A stretch of 20,646 bases of DNA from a virus. Of this stretch, positions 641 through 19,933 are shown one piece after another. Position numbers and translations under genes: made by a program. The stretch's first letter is position 1, and every line of letters begins with the position of its first letter. The notes under the pieces are model-generated. The model did not search any database, had not been told where the DNA came from, and worked only from the letters and a program-made list of their open reading frames with translations. The stretch is taken from positions 1 through 20,646 of IMG/VR virus record IMGVR_UViG_3300044612_002560; one strand, written 5' to 3'.

Positions 641-1669
641 ATGTCCGGCGACTGCGCGCACAAGATCATCCACGGCGACTGCCTCAAGAGCCTCGACGGC
701 ATCCCGCCTGTGGACTCGATCGTCACGGACCCGCCCTATGGGATCTCATTCATGGGGAACTCATGGGATCATGGAGTCCCCGGTGTGGACTTCTGGCGTG
801 GCTTCCTCGCGCACTCCAAACCCGGCGCGCATCTCCTCGCCTTCGGAGGAACCCGAACCTTCCACCGCCTCACCTGCGCGATCGAGGATGCAGGCTGGGA
901 GATCCGGGATTGCCTGATGTGGGTCTATGGCACCGGATTCCCGAAGTCCCACAACCTCAAGGGTGAGTGGGAAGGCTGGGGAACCACGCTCAAGCCTGCG
1001 TGGGAACCCATCATTCTCGCACGTAAGCCAATCTCCGGAACCGTTGAAGGAAATGCCCACACTCACGGCACTGGCGCTTTAAACATCGACGCATGTCGCG
1101 TGGAGCCTACCGGGGAGTCTTCATCCCGAGACGGAGAAGAATCCAGAGATGCCAGATACACGGATCGAGGAGCCACAAACTTCGCTGCTACTCCTGGTCC
1201 TCGCGGAGGAGACGCGAAAGGCCGTTGGCCCGCCAATCTCATCCACGACGGCAGCGAAGATGTGGTCGATCTCTTCCCGCACAGCAAGGATGGAGTTGCG
1301 GTCCAGCGCAATCGCGACGGAGAGGTCCACAACCAGATCTACGGCAAGTACAAGAAACCGCCTGGGGAAGATGTGGGATACGGAGGCTCCGGATCAGCAT
1401 CGCGATTCTTCTACTGCGCCAAACCATCCAAATCCGAACGCGGCGAAGGCAACAACCACCCCACCGTGAAGCCCATCGCCCTCATGCGATACCTCTGCCG
1501 CCTCATCACCCCTCCTGGAGGTGTGGTTCTTGACCCATTCGCCGGATCTGGAACCACAGGTGTGGCAGCGAAGCTCGAAGGATTCCGGTTCATCGGCGTG
1601 GAGATGGAGAAAGCCTTCTCAGAGATCGCCGAGAGTCGGATTTCTTCGATCACCCTTTCAAATTCGTAA
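641..1669 (+). CDS. Orphan DNA methyltransferase (N4-cytosine/N6-adenine type)
   Basis: This 342-residue protein is an S-adenosylmethionine-dependent DNA methyltransferase that would methylate an exocyclic amino group of adenine or cytosine in phage DNA. The catalytic motif TDPPYG is near residues 29-34, and the AdoMet-binding motif LDPFAGSGTT is near 297-306. Catalytic motif before binding motif is the beta-type order of the N-4/N-6 methylase family. HPTVKP before the binding motif is also typical. The ATG at 641 follows AAAGGA at a good distance and promoter P1. No restriction endonuclease is adjacent, so it is an orphan enzyme, likely protecting phage DNA or marking it for regulation. The target base and recognition site cannot be read from sequence. 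The stop codon lies inside the operator dyad of promoter P2. Confidence 0.92.
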   Translation: MSGDCAHKIIHGDCLKSLDGIPPVDSIVTDPPYGISFMGNSWDHGVPGVDFWRGFLAHSKPGAHLLAFGGTRTFHRLTCAIEDAGWEIRDCLMWVYGTGFPKSHNLKGEWEGWGTTLKPAWEPIILARKPISGTVEGNAHTHGTGALNIDACRVEPTGESSSRDGEESRDARYTDRGATNFAATPGPRGGDAKGRWPANLIHDGSEDVVDLFPHSKDGVAVQRNRDGEVHNQIYGKYKKPPGEDVGYGGSGSASRFFYCAKPSKSERGEGNNHPTVKPIALMRYLCRLITPPGGVVLDPFAGSGTTGVAAKLEGFRFIGVEMEKAFSEIAESRISSITLSNS

Positions 1670-5181: not shown

Positions 5182-5928
5182 TCACTTGATGAGCAGCTTC
5201 GAGATATCCCGCTTGTGAATCTGATCCGGAACCACACTCAGGAGCGGGGTCCAGAAATACTCCGCACCCTCGAAGAAGTAGTGCGTGACCTGCGACAGTC
5301 GCGTGCGGGTCTTGTCCCACCGCAACGCTCCACCATGAAGCAGATTCGAGGCCCAGATGAGGCACTGGCCCTTCTTCATGATCCCGAGTCGCTTGTTGCG
5401 AGTCAGGCCCTGCTGTACGACCAACCGAGCGATGTAATCCTCGTAGTGGTGATACGAAGACTCCTTGGCCGCCACGCCGATCGTCTGCATGTTCACCTCG
5501 GGCAACTTGTGGCTGCCTTCGTAGAACACGAGCGGGCCGTTATTTTCGTCCACATCTTCGAGGGCCAGCCAGACGCCGCACATCAACCCAGCAGGGTGTG
5601 AGTTGAAGTGAATCGTGTCGGAATGAATTTCCTGTTCCGTGCCGACCTTGAAGCTCAGTGTCTGGAACGGCAGAGGCTTGGATGCGTAGAGCCCCTTGAG
5701 GACAACATCCACGTTTTCGTTGAGAGCGATCGCCCTGCACGCCTCGGATGTCTTCCACAGGTCCTGCTTGCGGCCGTGCATGGCGTTGCCGAACACTGCA
5801 TTCATATCCTGGATGGCCTGATCCAGAATCGAAACGTCAATCTCCGGATCAAAAATCAGGTATCCAGATTCTTTGTACTGATCCCGAGCATCGAGCACGG
5901 AATCGTCCATTGTCCACACCTTGGTCAT
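5182..5928 (-). CDS. Phytanoyl-CoA dioxygenase-like Fe(II)/2-oxoglutarate enzyme
   Basis: This 248-residue protein matches the phytanoyl-CoA dioxygenase superfamily: Fe(II)- and 2-oxoglutarate-dependent oxygenases that hydroxylate or halogenate small molecules. The iron ligands are visible as HSD (His102, Asp104) and the distal His198 in NLLHGG, with Arg210 (TRLSQ) placed to bind the 2-oxoglutarate carboxylate. GVWLALEDVDENNGPLVFYEGSH is the characteristic core strand region. The ATG at 5928 follows GGAGAGAACGCA. It sits 19 nt after the stop of the GNAT-like gene, so the two are probably cotranscribed. In phages such enzymes are auxiliary metabolic genes or possible nucleic-acid modifiers. 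The substrate cannot be inferred; all catalytic residues appear intact. Confidence 0.88.
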   Translation of the reverse strand: MTKVWTMDDSVLDARDQYKESGYLIFDPEIDVSILDQAIQDMNAVFGNAMHGRKQDLWKTSEACRAIALNENVDVVLKGLYASKPLPFQTLSFKVGTEQEIHSDTIHFNSHPAGLMCGVWLALEDVDENNGPLVFYEGSHKLPEVNMQTIGVAAKESSYHHYEDYIARLVVQQGLTRNKRLGIMKKGQCLIWASNLLHGGALRWDKTRTRLSQVTHYFFEGAEYFWTPLLSVVPDQIHKRDISKLLIK

Positions 5929-5947
5929 TGCGTTCTCTCCGTGATGC

Positions 5948-6424
5948 TTAGAGGTTGTGGGCTTCAAAATACTTCGTCATGCGATTACGCGGTCCCTTAG
6001 TACCACCTGATCCAATTCGCCACACAAACAACCGCGCGTCCCCGGTTGTCTCCAACTCCGCAAACCCCGCGTCGCGGAGATGCGCCATCAGCTCGAAATT
6101 CTCCTCCTTCACCACCACCTTCGCATGCCGATCGGTGTGTCCCAGCAGTGTGTCCTTGAGCTGGTACAAACACACCGGAACCATCTCCATCGGGCAGGAG
6201 TAGATCAACAGGCGATTCGCCATGCCGTCCTTGGAGATCTGGAACCAGCCCTCGATGCCGTCAATCGATTCGATGAGAAAAATCGTACTGTGCTTGCCAG
6301 ACAATCTGTTTCTCACGATTGCGGCAGTATCCCCGCTCGGCCCGAACCTCTTGGAGCAACTCAGAATCCCCTTCGTGTCGGCGAGTGTCGCAATCCTGAC
6401 TCTTGCGTGAACGCTGTTTTCCAT
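5948..6424 (-). CDS. GNAT-like acyltransferase fold protein
   Basis: The ATG at 6424 follows GGGAAGGC and gives 158 residues. RVRIATLADTKGIL at the start, GIEGWFQISKDG and IYSC near the middle, and LRDAGFAELE towards the end follow the order of a GNAT N-acetyltransferase fold. The acetyl-CoA binding Q/RxxGxG/A motif is not clearly present, so it may be a divergent or inactive member or bind another acyl donor. It is directly upstream of the dioxygenase-like gene, and the pair could act on one substrate. The gene upstream runs 164 nt into this one in another frame, which is unusual here. Confidence 0.6.
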   Translation of the reverse strand: MENSVHARVRIATLADTKGILSCSKRFGPSGDTAAIVRNRLSGKHSTIFLIESIDGIEGWFQISKDGMANRLLIYSCPMEMVPVCLYQLKDTLLGHTDRHAKVVVKEENFELMAHLRDAGFAELETTGDARLFVWRIGSGGTKGPRNRMTKYFEAHNL

Positions 6425-8355: not shown

Positions 8356-8598
8356 TCAATTACCTGCGCGTTCCCCAGGAAAACCGACGCATCGGTGCAA
8401 TCCTTTTTCCTCCTCAGAAGGCCCGGCCTCGAAAAGCGGAGCCCGCGAACCACCCGTTGGTACTGACGGTGGCTTCCCACAGATGTGGGTTGAGTTGCCT
8501 TTTTCGCGGGAGAAGGTTCTCAAGAACACAACCCGAGGACGAAAGTCGTCCAGTCTACGGCAGCCCACCAAATCCTCCGGAAGATCTCTCTCCTCCAT
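8356..8598 (-). CDS. Possible small protein in the 8185-8640 gap
   Basis: An open frame from an ATG at 8598 gives 80 residues with an acidic start (MEERDLPEDLVG), a basic/aromatic centre (DDFRPRVVFLRTFSREKG) and a Gly/Pro/Ser-rich end. Composition is plausible for a phage protein and it fits the operon direction, but the ribosome binding site is poor. A TTG start at 8631 would add 11 residues and has GAGG upstream. The same DNA can form several hairpins, so it may instead be noncoding. The rest of the gap (8185-8355) contains no gene I can support. Confidence 0.33.
   Translation of the reverse strand: MEERDLPEDLVGCRRLDDFRPRVVFLRTFSREKGNSTHICGKPPSVPTGGSRAPLFEAGPSEEEKGLHRCVGFPGERAGN
8442..8551. 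other. Hairpin-rich segment
   Basis: CCCGCGAA (8442-8449) pairs with TTCGCGGG (8503-8510). Inside are CCACC-c-GT/AC-GGTGG (8450-8457 with 8466-8472) and CCCAC-AGAT-GTGGG (8476-8489). A further stem, GGACGA/TCGTCC, lies at 8537-8551. The layout is a three-way junction on either strand and overlaps the doubtful small gene. Confidence 0.4.
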
Positions 8599-8640
8599 CG
8601 GATCACTTAGGGAGATGTGGCATTGAGGCAAGCCTCGTTG

Positions 8641-8949
8641 TCAATTCCCCGTCTCGTACATCCAAACCGTCAAAATCACCGCTTCACCGCATTCTCTCCG
8701 GACAACCCAAATCGCCCTTCGATACGGCGAAGCGTAGTATTCATACCCACGCTTCCATTCGACCTTCTTCAGTCCGGCTTCACGCCGAAACCGATCGATT
8801 CGTCGTCTCAACCGCCTCCGAAGAGGCTGAGCCTGCTTGGCCACGTTCTCCACACGACGCTTCGGAGCCGTTCTCTCGAATCGCTCCTGGAACCTCTTGT
8901 GGCAGTGCTTCGTGACCGTGATAGGCCCCCTCACAGGTCGTCTCTCCAT
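8641..8949 (-). CDS. Small basic protein, paralogue of the 6261 gene
   Basis: The ATG at 8949 follows GGAGACAC and overlaps the end of the upstream gene. The 102-residue product is strongly basic: TVTKHCHKRFQERFER near residues 11-26, an Arg-rich helix (PLRRRLRRRIDRFRREAG), and a final beta region RAIWVVRRECGEAVILTVWMYETG. The same elements occur in the gene at 6261-6725, so this operon contains a duplicated pair. The H-KR-ER start followed by a Val-rich strand is common in small phage proteins of unknown function. A nucleic-acid role is suggested by charge only. Confidence 0.72.
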   Translation of the reverse strand: MERRPVRGPITVTKHCHKRFQERFERTAPKRRVENVAKQAQPLRRRLRRRIDRFRREAGLKKVEWKRGYEYYASPYRRAIWVVRRECGEAVILTVWMYETGN

Positions 8950-9113
8950 GTGTCTCCGTGGAAGTCCCGATCAACCCGACGCATCTTCGGGATCGGAATC
9001 GCGGTGTCCTCGAAGAGTTCATCCAGGTCTTCGTCGTGGATGATTTCGAGATCGTCGAGATCCTCGTCCCGGAACGGGTCAGGTTTCTTCTTCTCGGGCT
9101 TACGGCAACTCAT
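8931..9113 (-). CDS. Very acidic small protein, first gene of leftward operon
   Basis: The chosen ATG at 9113 gives 60 residues; a longer reading to 9176 would start upstream of the predicted transcription start and is rejected. The protein begins with a basic patch (CRKPEKKKPDPFRDE) and continues with three D/E-rich repeats (LDDLEIIHDEDLDELFED), ending in DRDFHGDTWRDD. Net charge is strongly negative, as in DNA-mimic or regulator-binding phage proteins. That idea is inference from composition alone. Its ribosome binding site is weak. It is the first gene after the leftward promoter at 9156-9184. Confidence 0.62.
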   Translation of the reverse strand: MSCRKPEKKKPDPFRDEDLDDLEIIHDEDLDELFEDTAIPIPKMRRVDRDFHGDTWRDDL

Positions 9114-9135
9114 GGCGAAAAACTCTGTGAGGCAT

Positions 9136-9165
9136 GTTGACACTCTCTGCCCGCAAGCATAGACT
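9136..9165 (+). promoter_or_regulatory. Rightward promoter TTGACA-17-TAGACT
   Basis: TTGACA (9137-9142) and TAGACT (9160-9165) are separated by 17 bp. Initiation near 9172 would drive the gene at 9223 and possibly the tRNA cluster. Its -10 overlaps the -10 of an opposing promoter by two bases. Confidence 0.75.
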
Positions 9166-9185
9166 GCACTTGCCAACGTGTCAAC
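9156..9185 (-). promoter_or_regulatory. Leftward promoter TTGACA-17-TATGCT
   Basis: On the - strand TTGACA (9184-9179) and TATGCT (9161-9156) are separated by 17 bp. It points into the leftward operon beginning at 9113. The outer sequences GTTGACAC (9136-9143) and GTGTCAAC (9178-9185) are a perfect inverted repeat centred on the overlapping -10 boxes. Confidence 0.75.
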
Positions 9186-9222
9186 GAGTTTGACGTGTGG
9201 TTTTTCTTCGGAAGGGGAACGG

Positions 9223-9732
9223 ATGCGATTCGAGACATTTTCGGATTCTTCGTGCGTCGTTCAGGGATGCTTCGCCACGTCCCTTGGTCCGGTTTATGTG
9301 ACTCAAGGGTCAACGACCGTACTCCTCAAGGACGCCGACGAAGATTCCGTGGAGTTCAACCCTGCTGAATGTGAAGAACTCTGGCCCGCCCTCAAGGCGT
9401 TCGCCGAGACCGGCGACATTCGGAATGCCGACTACGGGCCGCGGATTCCTCCGCTTCCGGTGAAGCCGTGCGAGGGTGGCACTGGCTACGGGGCGAACTT
9501 CCTGAGTGAGGGGGATTCTCCGTGTCACGCCGGGATCTCTCAGGATGCCGGTTCCGAATTCGTCAATTTGCGAACTTCGGAGACTCCCGGCGCTGAGATT
9601 ACCCTCGACCAAGACACCGCCGAACGTCTCGCTCTCGTGCTCCTGCGGTTCGCGCGCACGGGGCGGATCGAGGAGAAGCAGGCCACGAAGGATGTGGCTG
9701 AGACGGTTGACCCGGCTGTGGATCAGAATTGA
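9223..9732 (+). CDS. Internally duplicated unknown protein
   Basis: The ATG at 9223 follows GGAAGGGGAACGG. A GTG at 9178 in frame is too close to the predicted transcription start near 9172 and is rejected. The 169-residue acidic protein consists of two similar halves: residues about 20-66 (strands, then FNPAECEELWPALKAFAETGDI) and 104-149 (strands, then LDQDTAERLALVLLRFARTGRI). Each ends with a helix and FAxTGxI. A linker with PRIPPLPVKPCEGG joins them. No catalytic residues are visible. It is the only protein gene between the face-to-face promoters and the tRNA cluster. Its role is unknown; the repeated beta-helix unit suggests binding. Confidence 0.75.
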   Translation: MRFETFSDSSCVVQGCFATSLGPVYVTQGSTTVLLKDADEDSVEFNPAECEELWPALKAFAETGDIRNADYGPRIPPLPVKPCEGGTGYGANFLSEGDSPCHAGISQDAGSEFVNLRTSETPGAEITLDQDTAERLALVLLRFARTGRIEEKQATKDVAETVDPAVDQN

Positions 9733-9799
9733 ACGCCCTATCCACCATGTGTGGAAAAGGATCGCTGCTCGCTTGAATCGCGAGTGGTGCAAGTTGAAG
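9733..9799 (+). other. Noncoding leader of the tRNA cluster with hairpins
   Basis: No gene is seen. CCAC (9742-9745) and GTGG (9751-9754) form a small stem, and CTCGC-TTGAATC-GCGAG (9768-9784) forms a 5-bp stem with a 7-nt loop resembling an anticodon arm. CGCGAG (9779-9784) can instead pair with CTCGCG (9879-9884) after the permuted tRNA, bringing the two tRNA halves together. Confidence 0.45.
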
Positions 9800-9800
9800 C

Positions 9801-9879
9801 AATCCGGAGATGCGAGGTTCGACCCCCGCCGGTGGCATTGGCCAGCCGCTGTAGTTTAATGGTAGAACGCCGTGATTCC
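9801..9879 (+). tRNA. Candidate circularly permuted tRNA-Gly (TCC)
   Basis: The 3' half comes first: loop bases AA, stem TCCGG (9803-9807), variable AGAT, T-arm around TTCGACC (9818-9824), acceptor CGGTGGC (9830-9836) and A. Then follow a 7-nt linker and the 5' half: acceptor GCCGCTG (9845-9851), TA, D-arm GTTT-AATGGTA-GAAC, stem CCGTG (9870-9874) and loop ATTCC. Reassembled, the acceptor has seven pairs (two wobbles) and the anticodon loop reads ATTCCAA with TCC, U33 and A37. The D-arm is glycine-like. Defects: one T-C mismatch in the anticodon stem and an extra A in the T-stem. It may be functional after circular joining or a rearranged remnant. Confidence 0.5.
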
Positions 9880-9948
9880 TCGCGTAGCTCAATTGGCAGA
9901 GCACCGGCAGACGTGCCGTCAGTGTTGGTTCGAGTCCAACCGCGTGGT
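9878..9948 (+). tRNA. tRNA-like element with collapsed anticodon loop
   Basis: D-arm GCTC-AATTGGCA-GAGC and T-arm GTTGG-TTCGAGT-CCAAC are perfect. The acceptor CCTCGCG/CGCGTGG has one T-T mismatch. The anticodon region is one or two bases short. Read one way, it is a GAC (valine-like) 6-nt loop AGACGT without U33. Read the other way, it is a 5-bp stem CGGCA/TGCCG closed by only GACG. It is unlikely to decode normally. It could be a decaying tRNA-Val or a tRNA-shaped RNA with another role. It overlaps the permuted tRNA half by two bases. Confidence 0.5.
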
Positions 9949-9950
9949 AT

Positions 9951-10035
9951 CCGACAGGCTGGGGAACCCGGTGAGTCGGCGAGCCGCAATCGTAACTGCG
10001 GTGACGACGGGGAAAATTAGACAAGGCTGACCCGT
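9951..10035 (+). ncRNA. Structured spacer with three hairpins
   Basis: Three consecutive stems fill the space before tRNA-Lys. CCGAC/GTCGG (9951-9955, 9975-9979) encloses CTGGG-GAA-CCCGG. CCGCA/TGCGG pairs 9984-9988 with 9997-10001. ACGGG/CCCGT pairs 10007-10011 with 10031-10035. It contains no plausible gene. The third hairpin resembles, from memory, the P4-P5 region of tRNA group I introns, but no other intron core part was found. Confidence 0.4.
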
Positions 10036-10040
10036 AGCGT

Positions 10041-10113
10041 TCTGGCGTAGCTCAACTGGTAGAGCAGTATACTTTTAATATGCCCGTTGGATGTTCGAGT
10101 CATCCCGCCAGAA
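10041..10113 (+). tRNA. tRNA-Lys (anticodon TTT)
   Basis: The complete cloverleaf has acceptor TCTGGCG/CGCCAGA and D-arm GCTC/GAGC. The anticodon arm GTATA-CTTTTAA-TATGC has one T-G wobble and gives TTT. The T-arm is GGATG-TTCGAGT-CATCC, and the discriminator is A. CCA is not encoded (TCC follows). The next gene's ATG lies only three bases after the discriminator. Confidence 0.96.
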
Positions 10114-10116
10114 TCC

Positions 10117-10452
10117 ATGCCAAAACCAGACACCAGCCTCCGCGTCGTCATCAACGACCAACCGTGGCACCTGATTTTCGCCACACGGAAGCGAATCTCC
10201 GAGGAAGCCAAGAAGCACCAACTCTCCTACCGACTCAACGGGATGTGCGACTGGGACGCGAGGACCATCTGGATCTACCGAGGTCTTACCGGCAAGGAGT
10301 TGATGGACACGATCACCCACGAGTATTTCCACGCCAAACGTGGGGATTGCACTGAGGAGTGGGTGACTCAGGCGGCTTCGGAGTTGACAGATATTCAGTT
10401 TGATGTGTTGGGGTACAGGAGAATGGAATCCCACAAGGACGTGGCGAGTTGA
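10117..10452 (+). CDS. HExxH metallopeptidase-like protein
   Basis: This 111-residue protein carries ITHEYFHAKRGD, a zinc-metallopeptidase HExxH signature (His68, Glu69, His72), followed by an acidic pair (CTEEW, about residues 80-81) that could supply a third ligand. The N-terminus looks beta-rich and YRLNGMCDWDARTIWIYRGL precedes the helix, as in SprT/ImmA-type minimal metallopeptidases. The ATG at 10117 is used because the in-frame upstream TTG at 10087 lies inside tRNA-Lys. No Shine-Dalgarno sequence exists, because the leader is tRNA. It precedes the terminase genes. It may process a phage or host protein, but the target is unknown. Confidence 0.75.
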   Translation: MPKPDTSLRVVINDQPWHLIFATRKRISEEAKKHQLSYRLNGMCDWDARTIWIYRGLTGKELMDTITHEYFHAKRGDCTEEWVTQAASELTDIQFDVLGYRRMESHKDVAS

Positions 10453-10919
10453 TCCCAGACAACAACCGATCCTCCGAGCTTCGAGCCGCGGTAACGATCG
10501 TTCGATCGGCACTCGAAAAGGGCATCGACGCCTACAACATACGCCAGTACATCCGGGACGCAGGCGACATCGAGGTGGATGGAAATCCCATCTCGGACGC
10601 CATGTTCCAGGGTGTGCTGGCTATCGCCATTCAGCAGATCCAATCCGAGACTGACACTCGGGAATTCTCGGCGAAGCGAGCGAGAACCGAGGCGTACAAC
10701 CTAGCCCAAGCGATCGCGCAGGCTTGTCTCGTTGGTGGGGACGTGAGGGAGGCGAACAAGGCTGTCTCGAACATGATCGCCGTGATCGCCACGAGACCTC
10801 CACCGAAACCACCGAAGCAAGCCAAGGATGTGGGCAAGAAGGACTCGATCCCCAATCTGACGAATGACCAGCTCCGCGAGCTGATTGGAGAGAAGACGAG
10901 TGGCGAAGAGGAAGGCTAG
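10449..10919 (+). CDS. Candidate small terminase subunit
   Basis: The TTG at 10449 overlaps the previous stop (TTGA) with AAGGACGTGGCGAG upstream. The 156-residue product is helical: SSELRAAVTIVRSALEKGIDAYNIRQYIRDA near the N-terminus could be a helix-turn-helix-like DNA-binding part. AYNLAQAIAQACLVGGDVREANKAVSNMI could form an oligomerisation helix pair. It ends in a Pro/Lys-rich linker (RPPPKPPKQAKDVGKK) and acidic tail. Size, charge pattern and position directly before the large terminase, which starts inside its end, fit a DNA-recognising small terminase. No sequence signature proves it. Confidence 0.6.
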   Translation: MIPDNNRSSELRAAVTIVRSALEKGIDAYNIRQYIRDAGDIEVDGNPISDAMFQGVLAIAIQQIQSETDTREFSAKRARTEAYNLAQAIAQACLVGGDVREANKAVSNMIAVIATRPPPKPPKQAKDVGKKDSIPNLTNDQLRELIGEKTSGEEEG

Positions 10920-12369
10920 CGATCAGGACGCGCTGCTGGAGCTTTCCCGACGTGAGCCCAAGGTCTTCCGCGCCATGCTGGAGATCGATGGTGCCGGGTC
11001 GGAGCGGGTTCGGTACGCCAATGTGATTGCGCCGTTCCAGGAGAGGGACTTCGCCGCACTCGACCCGATCTTCATGTGGACTGCCGGATCTCCGGGCGCG
11101 GAAGATCCGGCGAAGAAGAAGGCGTGGATTCAGCGCGCACGCGGACACTCCAAGACCACAGACATTGCGTCTGAACTGACGTGGTTGTGTTACGCCGGAC
11201 GGAAGCAAGCCTCGGTGATCGTGGGTGCCGCAGACCGGGACCAGGCGAAGCTCGTCTCTTCCAGCATCCGGAAGCTGATCGAGATGAATCCGTGGCTGTC
11301 GGACTTCGTGGACCACACGACCTACGAGATCCGCTCCAAAAACGGAAACGTGGTCATCGAAATCCTTCCGGCTGATGCGGCTTCGTCGTTCGGCTACACC
11401 CCACACCTGACGATCTGCGACGAATTCACACACTGGCGGAAGGCGGAGTTCTGGGGATCTCTCGTCTCTTCCGCCGAGAAGAAGCGTGGCTGCCTCGTCG
11501 TCTGCTGCAATGCTGGTGTGGGCAAGGACTGGAAGTTCAACGTCAGGGAAGCCGCGAGGACGGACCCACAGTGGTACTACTCGGCCCCCGAAGGGTGTGT
11601 GGCTCCGTGGTTCACACAGAAACAACTCGACGGACAACGCAAGCTCCTCCCGCCCGCGGAATACTCCCGTCTGTGGGAGAACAAGTGGCAGGAATCGGGA
11701 GGTGAGCTTGTCTCGCTGGAAGAGGCGCTGGCCTGCGTCAATCACGACATCACCGAGCAAGATTACGGCACGCCAGGATGGTCCTACGTGGCATCTGTGG
11801 ACTACGCCGAGAAGCACGACTTCACGGTCGGTGGAATCGGCCACGTTTACGACCACAAGATCTACCTCGACCGCATGGATGTGGAAATGCCGAGGCCCGG
11901 CAAGTCCGTGAAGACATCCTGGGTCCGGAATTGGATGGAGAACATTCAGGAAAGATTCCTCGATGTTCTCTTCATCGTGGACCCGTACCAGCTTGTGACG
12001 ATCATCGAAGAACTCGGGGCGCAGGGATTCGACATCGAGCGGTTCGACTTCGGCTCCGGCAAGGGCAACTACGAGATCGGGATTGCGCTGCGTCAGGCGA
12101 TCATCCACAACCGTGTGGAATGGTATCCGAATTGTGGCGCTGTTCAGCGTGAATGGGGCAGGGAAGGACTGGAAGACGAACTCGCGTCTCTGATCGTGAA
12201 GCCCACATCGGGCGGTAAGCGATGGAGATTCGATCACATCAACGACAACGTCCACCATGACGACAGGTCGTACGTGCTGGGCTCGATGATTCACGCCTGC
12301 GTGAGACAGTTCCCCGAGGGTGGGGAGTATTTTGGGATGTCCGACTGGCAAGGTCTCTTGGAGGATTGA
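10900..12369 (+). CDS. terL: Terminase large subunit (packaging ATPase/nuclease)
   Basis: This 489-residue protein cuts concatemeric DNA and drives it into the prohead through the portal. The ATPase domain has a Walker A-like RARGHSKT (79-86) and Walker B LTICDEF (170-176) with catalytic Glu175. The nuclease domain has Asp301 in VASVDYAEKHDFT, Asp361 in LFIVDPYQL and a later HHDD cluster, the expected RNase H-like metal ligands. The start is the GTG at 10900 after GGAGAGAAGACGA, overlapping the small-subunit candidate by 20 nt. A longer TTG start at 10885 is less likely. The Walker A uses H-S rather than the usual G, seen in some terminases. The next ATG overlaps the stop. Confidence 0.93.
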   Translation: MAKRKASDQDALLELSRREPKVFRAMLEIDGAGSERVRYANVIAPFQERDFAALDPIFMWTAGSPGAEDPAKKKAWIQRARGHSKTTDIASELTWLCYAGRKQASVIVGAADRDQAKLVSSSIRKLIEMNPWLSDFVDHTTYEIRSKNGNVVIEILPADAASSFGYTPHLTICDEFTHWRKAEFWGSLVSSAEKKRGCLVVCCNAGVGKDWKFNVREAARTDPQWYYSAPEGCVAPWFTQKQLDGQRKLLPPAEYSRLWENKWQESGGELVSLEEALACVNHDITEQDYGTPGWSYVASVDYAEKHDFTVGGIGHVYDHKIYLDRMDVEMPRPGKSVKTSWVRNWMENIQERFLDVLFIVDPYQLVTIIEELGAQGFDIERFDFGSGKGNYEIGIALRQAIIHNRVEWYPNCGAVQREWGREGLEDELASLIVKPTSGGKRWRFDHINDNVHHDDRSYVLGSMIHACVRQFPEGGEYFGMSDWQGLLED

Positions 12370-13187
12370 TGACTCCCCGTATCAAGGAATGGAGCAACGA
12401 CTTCCTGATTCTCAGCGAGGATCTGGCTGGTCCCATCGCGCTCGCGAAGAAGATGCGAATCGAGGATGAGATTCGCGTGTGTCAGGGTCAGATCGAGGGT
12501 CTTCGTAAGTCTCGCCCGGAGGGGAAGAGACTGATCGAGATGATCGTGAGCGACCTGAATCGGCTTCAGGAAGCGAATTCCCAGGAGCGCGCGGAGTCCG
12601 TGCTTCTGCGGAATGCACGGGAGTTGTCGGAGAGCTACCAGCGGCAGTCGCAGGGGTATCCCTCGAACTCCAAGGCGTTGCTTCAGGAGATCGCCAGCTA
12701 CTTCTCACTCCTCGACATCGAGACAATCGCTGAGACGCTGGAGAAGCGAATCGCTCCGGCAGCAATCGATGTGGACGAGCAGATCGAAGAACTCCAGATG
12801 CGGATCGAGGACCTCAAGAGCGCGCCTCCGTACCACTGGCCTTCCGACGAAGATGTGGGCGAATTCTTTCGCTCCGGACACGTTCCGACGAACTGGCGTG
12901 GTCGCTCCGTGAGTGCGACGTACTTCCCCGCACAGATCGCCGAGCGCATCTGTTCCGACTTCCTCATCGAGTACCGGACTCGTGCGGTCTGCTACCTGAA
13001 GCCGGTCACGAATGTGGGTGTTCTGGTTTCCACGCTGCCCGAGAAGAAGAAGGCCGTGTGGACGGAGCTTTATACACTGCTGGCAATCACTCCCCAATCT
13101 CGTCGCCACATCTACATCCCGATCTCCGCCGCCAAGGAGACCAGCGACGAATCTGTGCCCGAAAACCCGATGTTCAAGCGAGGTTGA
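12369..13187 (+). CDS. Coiled-coil protein between terminase and portal
   Basis: The ATG at 12369 overlaps the terminase stop (TGATG), so the 272-residue product is translationally coupled. Residues 20-150 are mostly helical with heptad-like charge patterns (AKKMRIEDEIRVCQGQIEGLRK, DEQIEELQMRIEDLKS). The C-terminal third (SATYFPAQIAERICSDFLIEYRTRAVCYLKPV) looks globular. No enzymatic motif or membrane segment is visible. A long protein at this position is not standard in terminase-portal modules. It could be a packaging accessory, portal partner or lineage-specific scaffold. No family recognised. Confidence 0.8.
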   Translation: MTPRIKEWSNDFLILSEDLAGPIALAKKMRIEDEIRVCQGQIEGLRKSRPEGKRLIEMIVSDLNRLQEANSQERAESVLLRNARELSESYQRQSQGYPSNSKALLQEIASYFSLLDIETIAETLEKRIAPAAIDVDEQIEELQMRIEDLKSAPPYHWPSDEDVGEFFRSGHVPTNWRGRSVSATYFPAQIAERICSDFLIEYRTRAVCYLKPVTNVGVLVSTLPEKKKAVWTELYTLLAITPQSRRHIYIPISAAKETSDESVPENPMFKRG

Positions 13188-13189
13188 CC

Positions 13190-15190
13190 GTGAGCGACAC
13201 ACTCATTCACAGCGAAGGCGAGGTCTTCCGCGCTGAGCCGTACTCCGAAGAAGAGTTCGCAAAACGCGAACAGTCCGGAGATCCGATCCAGATCTTCGAG
13301 ACCGATCGTGGCTTCTTCATGGGGTCGGAAAAGGTCAACTCTCGGATCGTCGCGCTCTTCGGGCAAGAGGCTCTGCGGAAAGAGTCCACGAATCAGATTG
13401 TGGATGAAGATCCGGATCAGGCGGACTGGAATACTTCCGCTCAGTCCGCGAAGGACGACACGCCTGCGGCTCGCGAGAAGTATCGGGAAGCCTGTCGCTA
13501 CCTCGCGAAGTGGCACCCGAATGCGCGCGCTGCGATTCGGCTGTATCGGAACTACGTCGCCGGGAAGGAGCTGAAGCTCGAAATTGAGCCGGTCGACGAT
13601 TCCGAGGACGACTACGAGGACGAAGATCGTCGCGAGCGATGGGCCGCGCAGTTCATGGACTTCCTCCGGGTGAATTCCGGCAGCTACTCCATGACCTCGC
13701 ATGTGGTCAGAACATATCGCGATGGCGAAGCGTTCGTGTGGGGACTTCCGGAAAGTGCGTGGGATCGGGATTGGCCTCCCCGTGTGGCTTTCCTGCGCCC
13801 AGAAGAGATCGCCGATCCGAACGACAAGGATGCTGCGAATCAGGACCACGTTGACTACACGCACGGGATCATCACGGACCCGAACGACATCTACACCGTG
13901 CGTCAGTACCTGCGGGTGAAGACTCGTGGTGACGCGATCGGGACAAGCCTTCCCCCGATTCCGGCCGACCAGGTCATCCACACGAAGATCGACTGCGACG
14001 AGGACGAGCTGAGAGGTAATCCGCGGCTGCTTCCCGTCATCAAGCCAGCGCGGCAGATCGAGGGGATGGTCGACACGGAGTTGGTCGGGCGAAAGCTGCA
14101 AGCCTCGGTCGTGCTCCAAAAGAAGGTCGCCGGTGGTCCGAATGCGGTTCGATCCGTCTCGGACAATGCGCGCACGAGCACGAGCAACTACTCAAGCGGA
14201 TCGATGAATCGCGAGAAGGTGCGCCCCGGCACGATCGTGACCACCGGCACGAATGTGGAGTATGCGTTCCTCACGCCGGACACGAACTTCTCCGACGCAT
14301 CCCCACTCGCGCGCCAGATCCTGCTTCAGATCAGCGCTGCCACCGGTTGGCCGGAGTACATGATTACGGGTGATGCCTCCAACGGGAACCTCGCGAGCGC
14401 GCTGGTTCAGGAGGGGCCTGTGGTCAAGATGGTTCAGGACGAGCAAGAGTTCTTCGCGAAGGAATTCGAGAAGCTATTCCGCTGGTATCTGAAGCTGGCG
14501 ATCGAGAAGGGTGTGGTCGAAGACCTCGCCGACATGGACGAGTTCGACGAGAAGTACCGGATCACATGGAACTTCCCTGTCGCCGTGACTCGGGACAACC
14601 TGAAGGATCGTCAGGCGGACAACCTGAGCCTCATGGGTGGCGTGATCTCCCGCACCCAGGCGATGCGCAACCTTGGAGTCAAGCCCGCCAAGATGAAGCG
14701 CGAGATGAAGGAAGAGATGGACGAGCTTCCCGCGATGGGGAATGGGCTCGCTGCCATGAATCCTTCGATGGCGGACAAGCAGGACAGTTCCGCGGCAAAC
14801 GCTCAGGACGGAAGCGGAACGAACCAGGGTGACAGCCCAATCGTTCAGCACGACGACCGCACCGAATCCGAGGGTTATGTCGCTCCGGAAGGTGCCAAAG
14901 CTGAGGCGAAGCGTGGCCTCGAATGGCGACAGGAGTTCGGTCGCGGCGGGACTGCTGTGGGTGTCGCGCGTGCGCGGGACATCTCGGGTGGCAAGTCGCT
15001 CTCCGCAGACACGATCGGCCGGATGGTTTCGTTCTTCGCTCGTCACGAAGTCGACAAGCAGGGCACGGGATGGTCTCCGGGTGAAGAGGGATATCCGTCG
15101 AATGGGCGGATCGCGTGGGCGCTCTGGGGCGGTGACGCCGGTCGTGCGTGGGCAAACAAGGTCTACGACTCCTTCGAGGATGCGGAGTAA
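13190..15190 (+). CDS. Portal protein with C-terminal extra domain
   Basis: This 666-residue protein forms the dodecameric DNA gate of the head vertex. Portal features include WNTSAQSAKDD near the start, YRNYVAGKELKLE, DGEAFVWGLPES, the VIHTKIDCDEDELRGNPRLLPVIKPARQIE region, and SAATGWPEYMITGDASNGN followed by the long helix ending WYLKLAIEKG, as in phage portal families. From about residue 575 (EWRQEFGRGGTAVGVARARD) to the end there is a separate domain with VSFFARHEVDK, EEGYPSNGRIAWALWGGDAGRAWA. That module is known to me from other phage proteins without a firm function. The GTG at 13190 follows GCGAGG; longer starts run through the previous gene in another frame. Confidence 0.9.
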   Translation: MSDTLIHSEGEVFRAEPYSEEEFAKREQSGDPIQIFETDRGFFMGSEKVNSRIVALFGQEALRKESTNQIVDEDPDQADWNTSAQSAKDDTPAAREKYREACRYLAKWHPNARAAIRLYRNYVAGKELKLEIEPVDDSEDDYEDEDRRERWAAQFMDFLRVNSGSYSMTSHVVRTYRDGEAFVWGLPESAWDRDWPPRVAFLRPEEIADPNDKDAANQDHVDYTHGIITDPNDIYTVRQYLRVKTRGDAIGTSLPPIPADQVIHTKIDCDEDELRGNPRLLPVIKPARQIEGMVDTELVGRKLQASVVLQKKVAGGPNAVRSVSDNARTSTSNYSSGSMNREKVRPGTIVTTGTNVEYAFLTPDTNFSDASPLARQILLQISAATGWPEYMITGDASNGNLASALVQEGPVVKMVQDEQEFFAKEFEKLFRWYLKLAIEKGVVEDLADMDEFDEKYRITWNFPVAVTRDNLKDRQADNLSLMGGVISRTQAMRNLGVKPAKMKREMKEEMDELPAMGNGLAAMNPSMADKQDSSAANAQDGSGTNQGDSPIVQHDDRTESEGYVAPEGAKAEAKRGLEWRQEFGRGGTAVGVARARDISGGKSLSADTIGRMVSFFARHEVDKQGTGWSPGEEGYPSNGRIAWALWGGDAGRAWANKVYDSFEDAE

Positions 15191-18658: not shown

Positions 18659-19933
18659 ATGCGTAAGGTCTCTGTGGACGCCCTCAAGGCGGTCTACGAT
18701 GCCCACGGCCCCAAGGGGCTGTTGAAATTCGTCCGTGAAGGCTTGAAGGCGAAGACCTTTTCGCTGGAAGACTTCTCGATCCGTCAACTGGCGATGGTCA
18801 CGGGCGCGATCGACCCGTGGACCGAAGAAGCCTCGCTGCTTCGCGTTTCCGGGCAAGACCGGATGCTCGAAGCCTCGCCTTCGCTCTATGCGAACGAGTG
18901 CCACAATCAGTGGGAGCGCGCCAAGGGCTCGGCTCTGGCTCGCGAGTCACTGACGACCACGATCTTCCCGGTCGTGACGGCGGAACTGCTCCAGAACAAG
19001 ATCATCGAAGCGTATCAGTCGGCTCCCGGCATCGCGATGGATCTCATCACGGTGGTTCCGAGCAAGGTTCGCAACCAGAAGATGGCCGGGTTCACGGGCA
19101 TCGGTGGTTCGCTGGATGTGCCGGAAGGGATGCCTTACCAAGAAACCGGCTTCGGTGAAAAGTACGTCACCACGTCGGAATCGAAGAAAGGCCGCATCCT
19201 CTCGATCAACGAAGAAACCATCATGTTCGACCAGACGGGTGAAATCGCCCGTCGCGCGAACATGCTCGGTGAGTACGTTCGTCAGGAATGGGAACGGTCG
19301 ACGGTTCGGGCGATCATGGATGCCGACACCGCGACTGGCAAGTACGTGTACCGTCCGAACGGGACCGCGGAAGCCCTCTACAACACGGACGGCTCGAACT
19401 ACAACTACATCGGTGCCAGCAACACGACCAGCACGTCGTTCAATGCTGCGTCCCCGATGGTCGACTGGACCGACTTCGACCACGTCCGGAAGTACCGGGC
19501 CACGGAAGTCAAGGATGATCGTCAAGACGGCACGCAACTGCCGATCGGGATGATTAACTCCGGGCTGACGCTGCTCTGCCCGGAATCGCTGCTCGGCACG
19601 GCTCTGTCGATCTACAACGCGACCTCGGTTGACGCCTCTGGTGCGACGACCTCGGCTCACGTTGCTCACACGGGCGGGAACCAGGTCCGTGCGATGATCT
19701 CGCGGATCGTCTCCAGCCCGTACGTGGATGAAGTGAGCGCGGCTGACTACTACATCGGTCAGTTCAACCGCCAGTTCATCTGGAATGAAATCATGCCGCT
19801 CCAGACCTTCGTGCAAGGATCTGGCAGCGAATCGGCGTTCGAGCGTGACGTGGTCCTCCGCATCAAGGCCCGCTACTACGGCGGTCTGTCGGCGGTTGAC
19901 TCGGTCTTCGTGACGAAGGTCGACGGTGCCTGA
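18659..19933 (+). CDS. Major capsid protein
   Basis: This 424-residue protein is the expected major head subunit, judged by its place after protease/scaffold and decoration genes, its size and its sequence style. The N-terminal helix (VSVDALKAVYDAHGPKGLLKFV) could be an arm removed by the protease. Residues about 140-200 (PSKVRNQKMAGFTGIGG, YVTTSESKKGRILSINEETIMFDQTGEI) fit an HK97-fold E-loop and spine helix. The end FERDVVLRIKARYYGGLSAVDSVFVTKV is a typical capsid C-terminal strand, close in style to Mu gpT-type subunits. The ATG at 18659 follows GAGGACC. Strong hairpins flank the gene at 18577 and 19951. Confidence 0.85.
   Translation: MRKVSVDALKAVYDAHGPKGLLKFVREGLKAKTFSLEDFSIRQLAMVTGAIDPWTEEASLLRVSGQDRMLEASPSLYANECHNQWERAKGSALARESLTTTIFPVVTAELLQNKIIEAYQSAPGIAMDLITVVPSKVRNQKMAGFTGIGGSLDVPEGMPYQETGFGEKYVTTSESKKGRILSINEETIMFDQTGEIARRANMLGEYVRQEWERSTVRAIMDADTATGKYVYRPNGTAEALYNTDGSNYNYIGASNTTSTSFNAASPMVDWTDFDHVRKYRATEVKDDRQDGTQLPIGMINSGLTLLCPESLLGTALSIYNATSVDASGATTSAHVAHTGGNQVRAMISRIVSSPYVDEVSAADYYIGQFNRQFIWNEIMPLQTFVQGSGSESAFERDVVLRIKARYYGGLSAVDSVFVTKVDGA

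Follow-up and report, generated by a model that had tools for sequence, protein, structure and literature searches.

The gap between two divergent genes in IMG/VR virus record IMGVR_UViG_3300044612_002560 carries two strong promoter-like sequences that face each other and overlap, raising the question of whether they form a single bidirectional promoter and whether that promoter forces a choice between two operons. The record, 20,646 bases long, is referred to here as the window. The presence of terminase, portal and head protein genes, together with the other genes listed in Table 1, indicates that the record is part of a tailed phage. The whole element, 48 bp at 9137–9184, lies inside a 109 bp gap (9114–9222) separating the gene starts at 9113 (-) and 9223 (+). 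A purine-rich GGAAGGGG precedes the ATG of the rightward gene, while no good Shine-Dalgarno sequence is found upstream of the leftward ATG. The protein encoded by the first leftward gene has no family match in PHROGs, Pfam or NCBIfam. The GC skew changes from negative to positive along the window, with the minimum of the cumulative GC skew in the 8501–9500 step, the region that holds the paired promoter. The leftward block ending at 9113 is a phage accessory operon in which a PhyH-type dioxygenase gene sits.

Table 1. Features of the paired promoter, its flanking genes and the remainder of the window.
Feature	Position	Strand	Basis or remark
Rightward promoter -35 box, TTGACA (6/6)	9137–9142	+	Sequence and promoter scan
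Rightward promoter -10 box, TAGACT (4/6), 17 bp spacer	9160–9165	+	Sequence and promoter scan
Leftward promoter -35 box, TTGACA (6/6)	9184–9179	-	Sequence and promoter scan
Leftward promoter -10 box, TATGCT (4/6), 17 bp spacer	9161–9156	-	Sequence and promoter scan
Start predicted for the rightward transcript, a G 7 bp past the -10	9172	+	Inferred from spacing
Predicted leftward transcription start	9148–9150	-	Inferred from spacing
Hairpin-capable imperfect repeat with T-rich tail	9176–9198	+	Directly after predicted rightward start; overlaps leftward -35
First leftward gene, 60 aa	8931–9113	-	Overlapped by the next gene, 102 aa, 8641–8949
First rightward gene, 169 aa	9223–9732	+	C-terminal match to phrog_3849 (unknown function); sub-cutoff DUF match
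DNA methyltransferase	641–1669	+	Gene content of window
PhyH-type oxygenase (dioxygenase)	5182–5967	-	Pfam E 5.7e-16; in leftward block ending 9113
Terminase large subunit	10885–12369	+	Protein family search
Portal	13058–15190	+	Protein family search
Head protein	18659–19933	+	Matches head maturation protease family
tRNA genes	4304, 9878, 10040		ARAGORN/Rfam tRNA calling

The sequence is exactly as the preliminary description had it, with two facing TTGACA promoters, 17 bp spacers and -10 boxes sharing two bases. The 8 bp arms that it had placed symmetrically about 9160.5, GTTGACAC at 9136–9143 and GTGTCAAC at 9178–9185, are 100% complementary, with 34 nt between them. The two shared bases are the TA at 9160–9161, inside AGCATAGACT (9156–9165), where the key -11A and -7T are found on both strands (ANNNTANNNT). 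Each promoter matches the sigma-70-type TTGACA/TATAAT consensus at 10 of 12 positions, and neither of the -10 boxes, both only 4/6, has a TG extension. Use of a sigma factor of this type is assumed. The claim that the promoters point at each other holds for the boxes and not for the RNAs; because the -10 boxes overlap, transcripts are predicted to diverge rather than converge. The predicted starts are 22–24 bp apart, or 23 bp given the 2 bp overlap and a -10-to-start distance of 7 bp on each side.

This arrangement is rare in the window and by chance. TTGACA-N16-18-TANNNT has just two matches in the 20.6 kb record, both belonging to this pair, and the pair provides the sole 10/12 sites in the promoter scan. 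Face-to-face pairs of promoters of at least 10/12 with overlapping -10 boxes were counted in 4,000 dinucleotide-preserving shuffles. Only one shuffle generated any such pair and none generated one with two perfect -35 boxes. Sites of at least 10/12 number two, against a shuffle mean of 0.45. A looser 9/12 scan of the record found no enrichment over shuffles (4 found, 5.3 expected), so the case depends on this single arrangement, not on how dense promoters are in the record.

The site is probably an example of a known, widespread and recently recognised kind of bacterial promoter, here with unusually perfect -35 boxes on both sides. A spacing of 7–25 bp between divergent starts defines bidirectional promoters in PMC10268837. 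In PMC12825309 the commonest start spacing is 18 bp, with 10 bp and 23 bp also common, and the 2 bp -10 overlap at 9160–9161 corresponds to the preferred 23 bp configuration. The site resembles the bacterial bidirectional promoters of Warman and Grainger in its shared -10 DNA, the distance between its predicted starts, the divergent genes and the steric exclusion expected of it. It differs from them in belonging to a phage, in combining two perfect -35 boxes with 17 bp spacers and in having starts predicted from sequence; the -35 of mapped Salmonella promoters is described as poorly conserved in PMC10268837. A search of an open-licence library listed no paper dealing specifically with bidirectional promoters in phages.

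Further evidence comes from the same architecture elsewhere. The pattern TTGACA-N13-ANNNTANNNT-N13-TGTCAA, which has the 17 bp spacing, was searched in public viral contigs and bacterial genomes, the controls in viral contigs being the same specified bases with spacers of 13 bp or 21 bp. Sites were classed with a crude longest-ORF gene caller and collapsed to distinct sites at 75% site identity, a cluster being scored as in-gene if any member was in-gene. The window's own record is absent from the collection listings. In the viral contigs there are 85 stretches at 17 bp spacing versus 37 at 13 bp and 8 at 21 bp, representing 39, 23 and 7 distinct sites, with unequal numbers from the two controls. 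The 17 bp sites are concentrated in gaps flanked by divergent genes, which hold 12 of the 39 distinct sites and none of the 30 controls (Fisher p=0.0007) and where only 2.8% of random positions from the same viral loci fall, the random-position tests here and below taking sites as independent. Two pairs of divergent clusters, L009/L081 and L021/L066, have right-hand genes that are alike by eye, and after merging these the count is 10 of 37 versus 0 of 30 (p=0.0015). Conversely, 8 of the 39 viral sites are in-gene, versus 21 of the 30 controls. A single family accounts for 23 of the 85 viral stretches and is in-gene by the cluster rule, 12 of its 23 loci being called in-gene. The L022 group, divergent in 2 of 4 cases, is also scored in-gene because any in-gene member decides the cluster.

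The bacterial genome scan, which has no spacing control, gave at least 118 stretches, all 118 listed being classified, and at least 97 distinct sites. Among the matches listed, divergent genes flank 36 of the 97 distinct sites, versus 3.6% of random positions. The difference in placement between the 17 bp sites and their controls thus ties this spacing to divergent genes, which is what two working promoters would predict. The counts suggest that selection favours the geometry in divergent-gene gaps of both viruses and bacteria. The genes beside the viral divergent sites are mixed, including a late sigma factor, DNA polymerase, HNH, RNA ligase and one repressor (10 of the 23 listed proteins scanned), and no common switch role can therefore be drawn from them. 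Near-perfect mirror promoters between divergent genes are seen in L005 (2510–2557, adjoining the late sigma factor gene), L022 (12188–12235, in the group adjoining the repressor gene) and further loci.

Rarity, the divergent-gene gap, the predicted start spacing of about 23 bp and the placement of similar sites together make a real bidirectional promoter the most likely explanation. On this sequence evidence, 9137–9184 is probably a bidirectional promoter of the sigma-70 type and the 23 bp class, carried by a tailed phage. The host's RNA polymerase would bind in either orientation, each offering a consensus -35, the optimal 17 bp spacing and a -10 box of moderate quality. Since the -10 boxes share one TA step, the two complexes would overlap on the DNA and either would shut out the other. 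RNA made in one orientation would run rightward from about 9172 into the 169 aa gene, followed by tRNA and head genes, and RNA made in the other would run leftward from about 9149 into the operon that holds the small genes and PhyH. A population would be expected to show both outputs, with competition arising only at high occupancy.

Only one polymerase at a time, and with it an either/or choice between the leftward accessory operon and a rightward RNA and structural side, had been proposed for this site. The nature of the rightward side is borne out, as two tRNAs followed by terminase, portal and head protein lie to the right. That the two orientations should not be bound together agrees with the steric constraints that rule out simultaneous polymerase binding at bidirectional promoters, as given in PMC12825309, and the site does lie between divergent units. 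The functional choice fares less well, since in that paper all five natural E. coli bidirectional promoters tested, one of them bioA/bioB, had basal activity too low for substantial competition. Competition arose there once a -35 was improved in E. coli constructs, with one of the five -35 improvements, bdcR, leaving transcription unraised (PMC12825309). With two perfect -35 boxes competition is more plausible here than is usual, though the -10 boxes are only 4/6, and this combination makes its degree unpredictable.

A stronger form of the bidirectional promoter would be a true built-in switch, in which exclusive occupancy would make the two operons take turns during infection, perhaps with a phage factor that improves one side tilting the balance. 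The perfect -35 boxes and the E. coli constructs argue for this, as do the left and right genes, which look functionally different (small genes and PhyH versus head genes). Set against these are the lack of basal competition at the natural promoters and the weak -10 boxes, and the scan of window proteins revealed no recognisable regulator or activator, making such a switch unlikely. The lambda PR/PRM and 186 pR/pL lysogeny switches likewise place two opposed promoters at a phage operon boundary. They have a repressor gene and operators beside the promoters, and are not known to share a -10. At the phage site neither flanking gene matches a repressor, and searching both in protein families found no repressor/cro-type gene beside the site. 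A wider proposal, that phages use a distinct high-strength bidirectional subclass, is improbable. Mirrored -35 boxes of perfect match would there be combined with 17 bp spacers and a 2 bp -10 overlap, and polymerase competition, unlike that at the E. coli promoters tested, would suffice without an activator to split expression of two operons cell by cell. If the promoter is real, it offers a small system in which to ask whether bidirectional promoters that are both strong and symmetric compete when no activator is present, a question arising from the E. coli work.

A single working promoter, its partner being a chance mirror or a source of trivial RNA, would suit the 4/6 match of either -10 box and the fact that directional promoters are more usual. 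Yet each side is followed at once by a correctly oriented gene, the scan holds no other 10/12 promoter for either unit, and a chance mirror is improbable at one in 4,000 shuffles; this explanation is quite unlikely.

The symmetric arms had also been suggested to bind a dimeric regulator, which would make them an operator covering both promoters. E. coli bioA/bioB, which are also divergent genes with a bidirectional promoter, are regulated by BirA at a palindromic operator; the phage site differs in having no supported operator or regulator. The exact 8 bp arms and the second imperfect repeat overlapping the leftward -35 are consistent with an operator here. However, six of the eight bases in each arm are the -35 box, with one extra matching base each side, therefore the 8 bp repeat is not independent evidence, and the 34 nt gap is long for one dimer. 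Across 9137–9184, 11 of 24 half-positions are symmetric, six being the -35 and two the key -10 bases. Outside the promoter boxes only 3 of 16 are symmetric, below the quarter expected by chance. The arm base adjoining TTGACA is symmetric in 14 of the 39 other viral sites and in 36 of the 97 genome sites among the matches listed, only somewhat above a quarter. With the symmetry outside the boxes at background and no regulator gene among the window proteins scanned, the suggestion is not upheld, and an operator for a dimeric regulator is very unlikely. Chance resemblance, the phage using another polymerase or sigma factor here, hardly deserves credence given that the pair provides the sole TTGACA-N16-18-TANNNT matches, is rare in shuffles and lies between divergent genes, even with a sigma factor type that is assumed and a record that covers part of a genome.

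The imperfect repeat at 9176–9198 was considered separately as a terminator or attenuator and rejected as unsupported. It folds no better than shuffles, the hairpin scoring z -0.38 and the leader z -0.26, and the number of terminator-like sites in the window, 17 versus a shuffle mean of 16.0, also counts against a terminator.

Conservation of the site was sought in phages, viral contigs and genomes, where no relative of the window turned up. Megablast of 8400–10200 against phages gave no match, nor did tblastn of the 169 aa protein in phages or a terminase search in genomes, while terminase and portal searches in phages gave partial matches only. Searches of viral contigs with the 102 aa leftward gene, the 169 aa rightward gene, the terminase and the head protein found no relative. 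The PhyH search of the viral contigs found one distant locus, L004, at 37% identity, which has essentially only the PhyH gene in common with the window by tblastx. Distant blastn matches of 8900–9400 in 9 records were set aside as short and weak (E 3e-3 to 4e-2).

Two other features of the rightward side were seen. At 9845–9879 a stretch resembling the 5' part of a tRNA (GCCGCTGTAGTTTAATGGTAGAACGCCGTGATTCC) leads straight into the tRNA-Val gene at 9878; it is not called as a tRNA by ARAGORN or Rfam and, judged by eye, is possibly a truncated tRNA. Portal residues 607–710, the C-terminal domain, match part of six Roseobacter phage proteins from the capsid/portal region at 61–65% identity and have 51% identity to Synechococcus phage S-CBS3 and Pseudomonas phage PaBG. 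The remainder of the portal has no comparable match, and the C-terminal domain is perhaps a mobile one.
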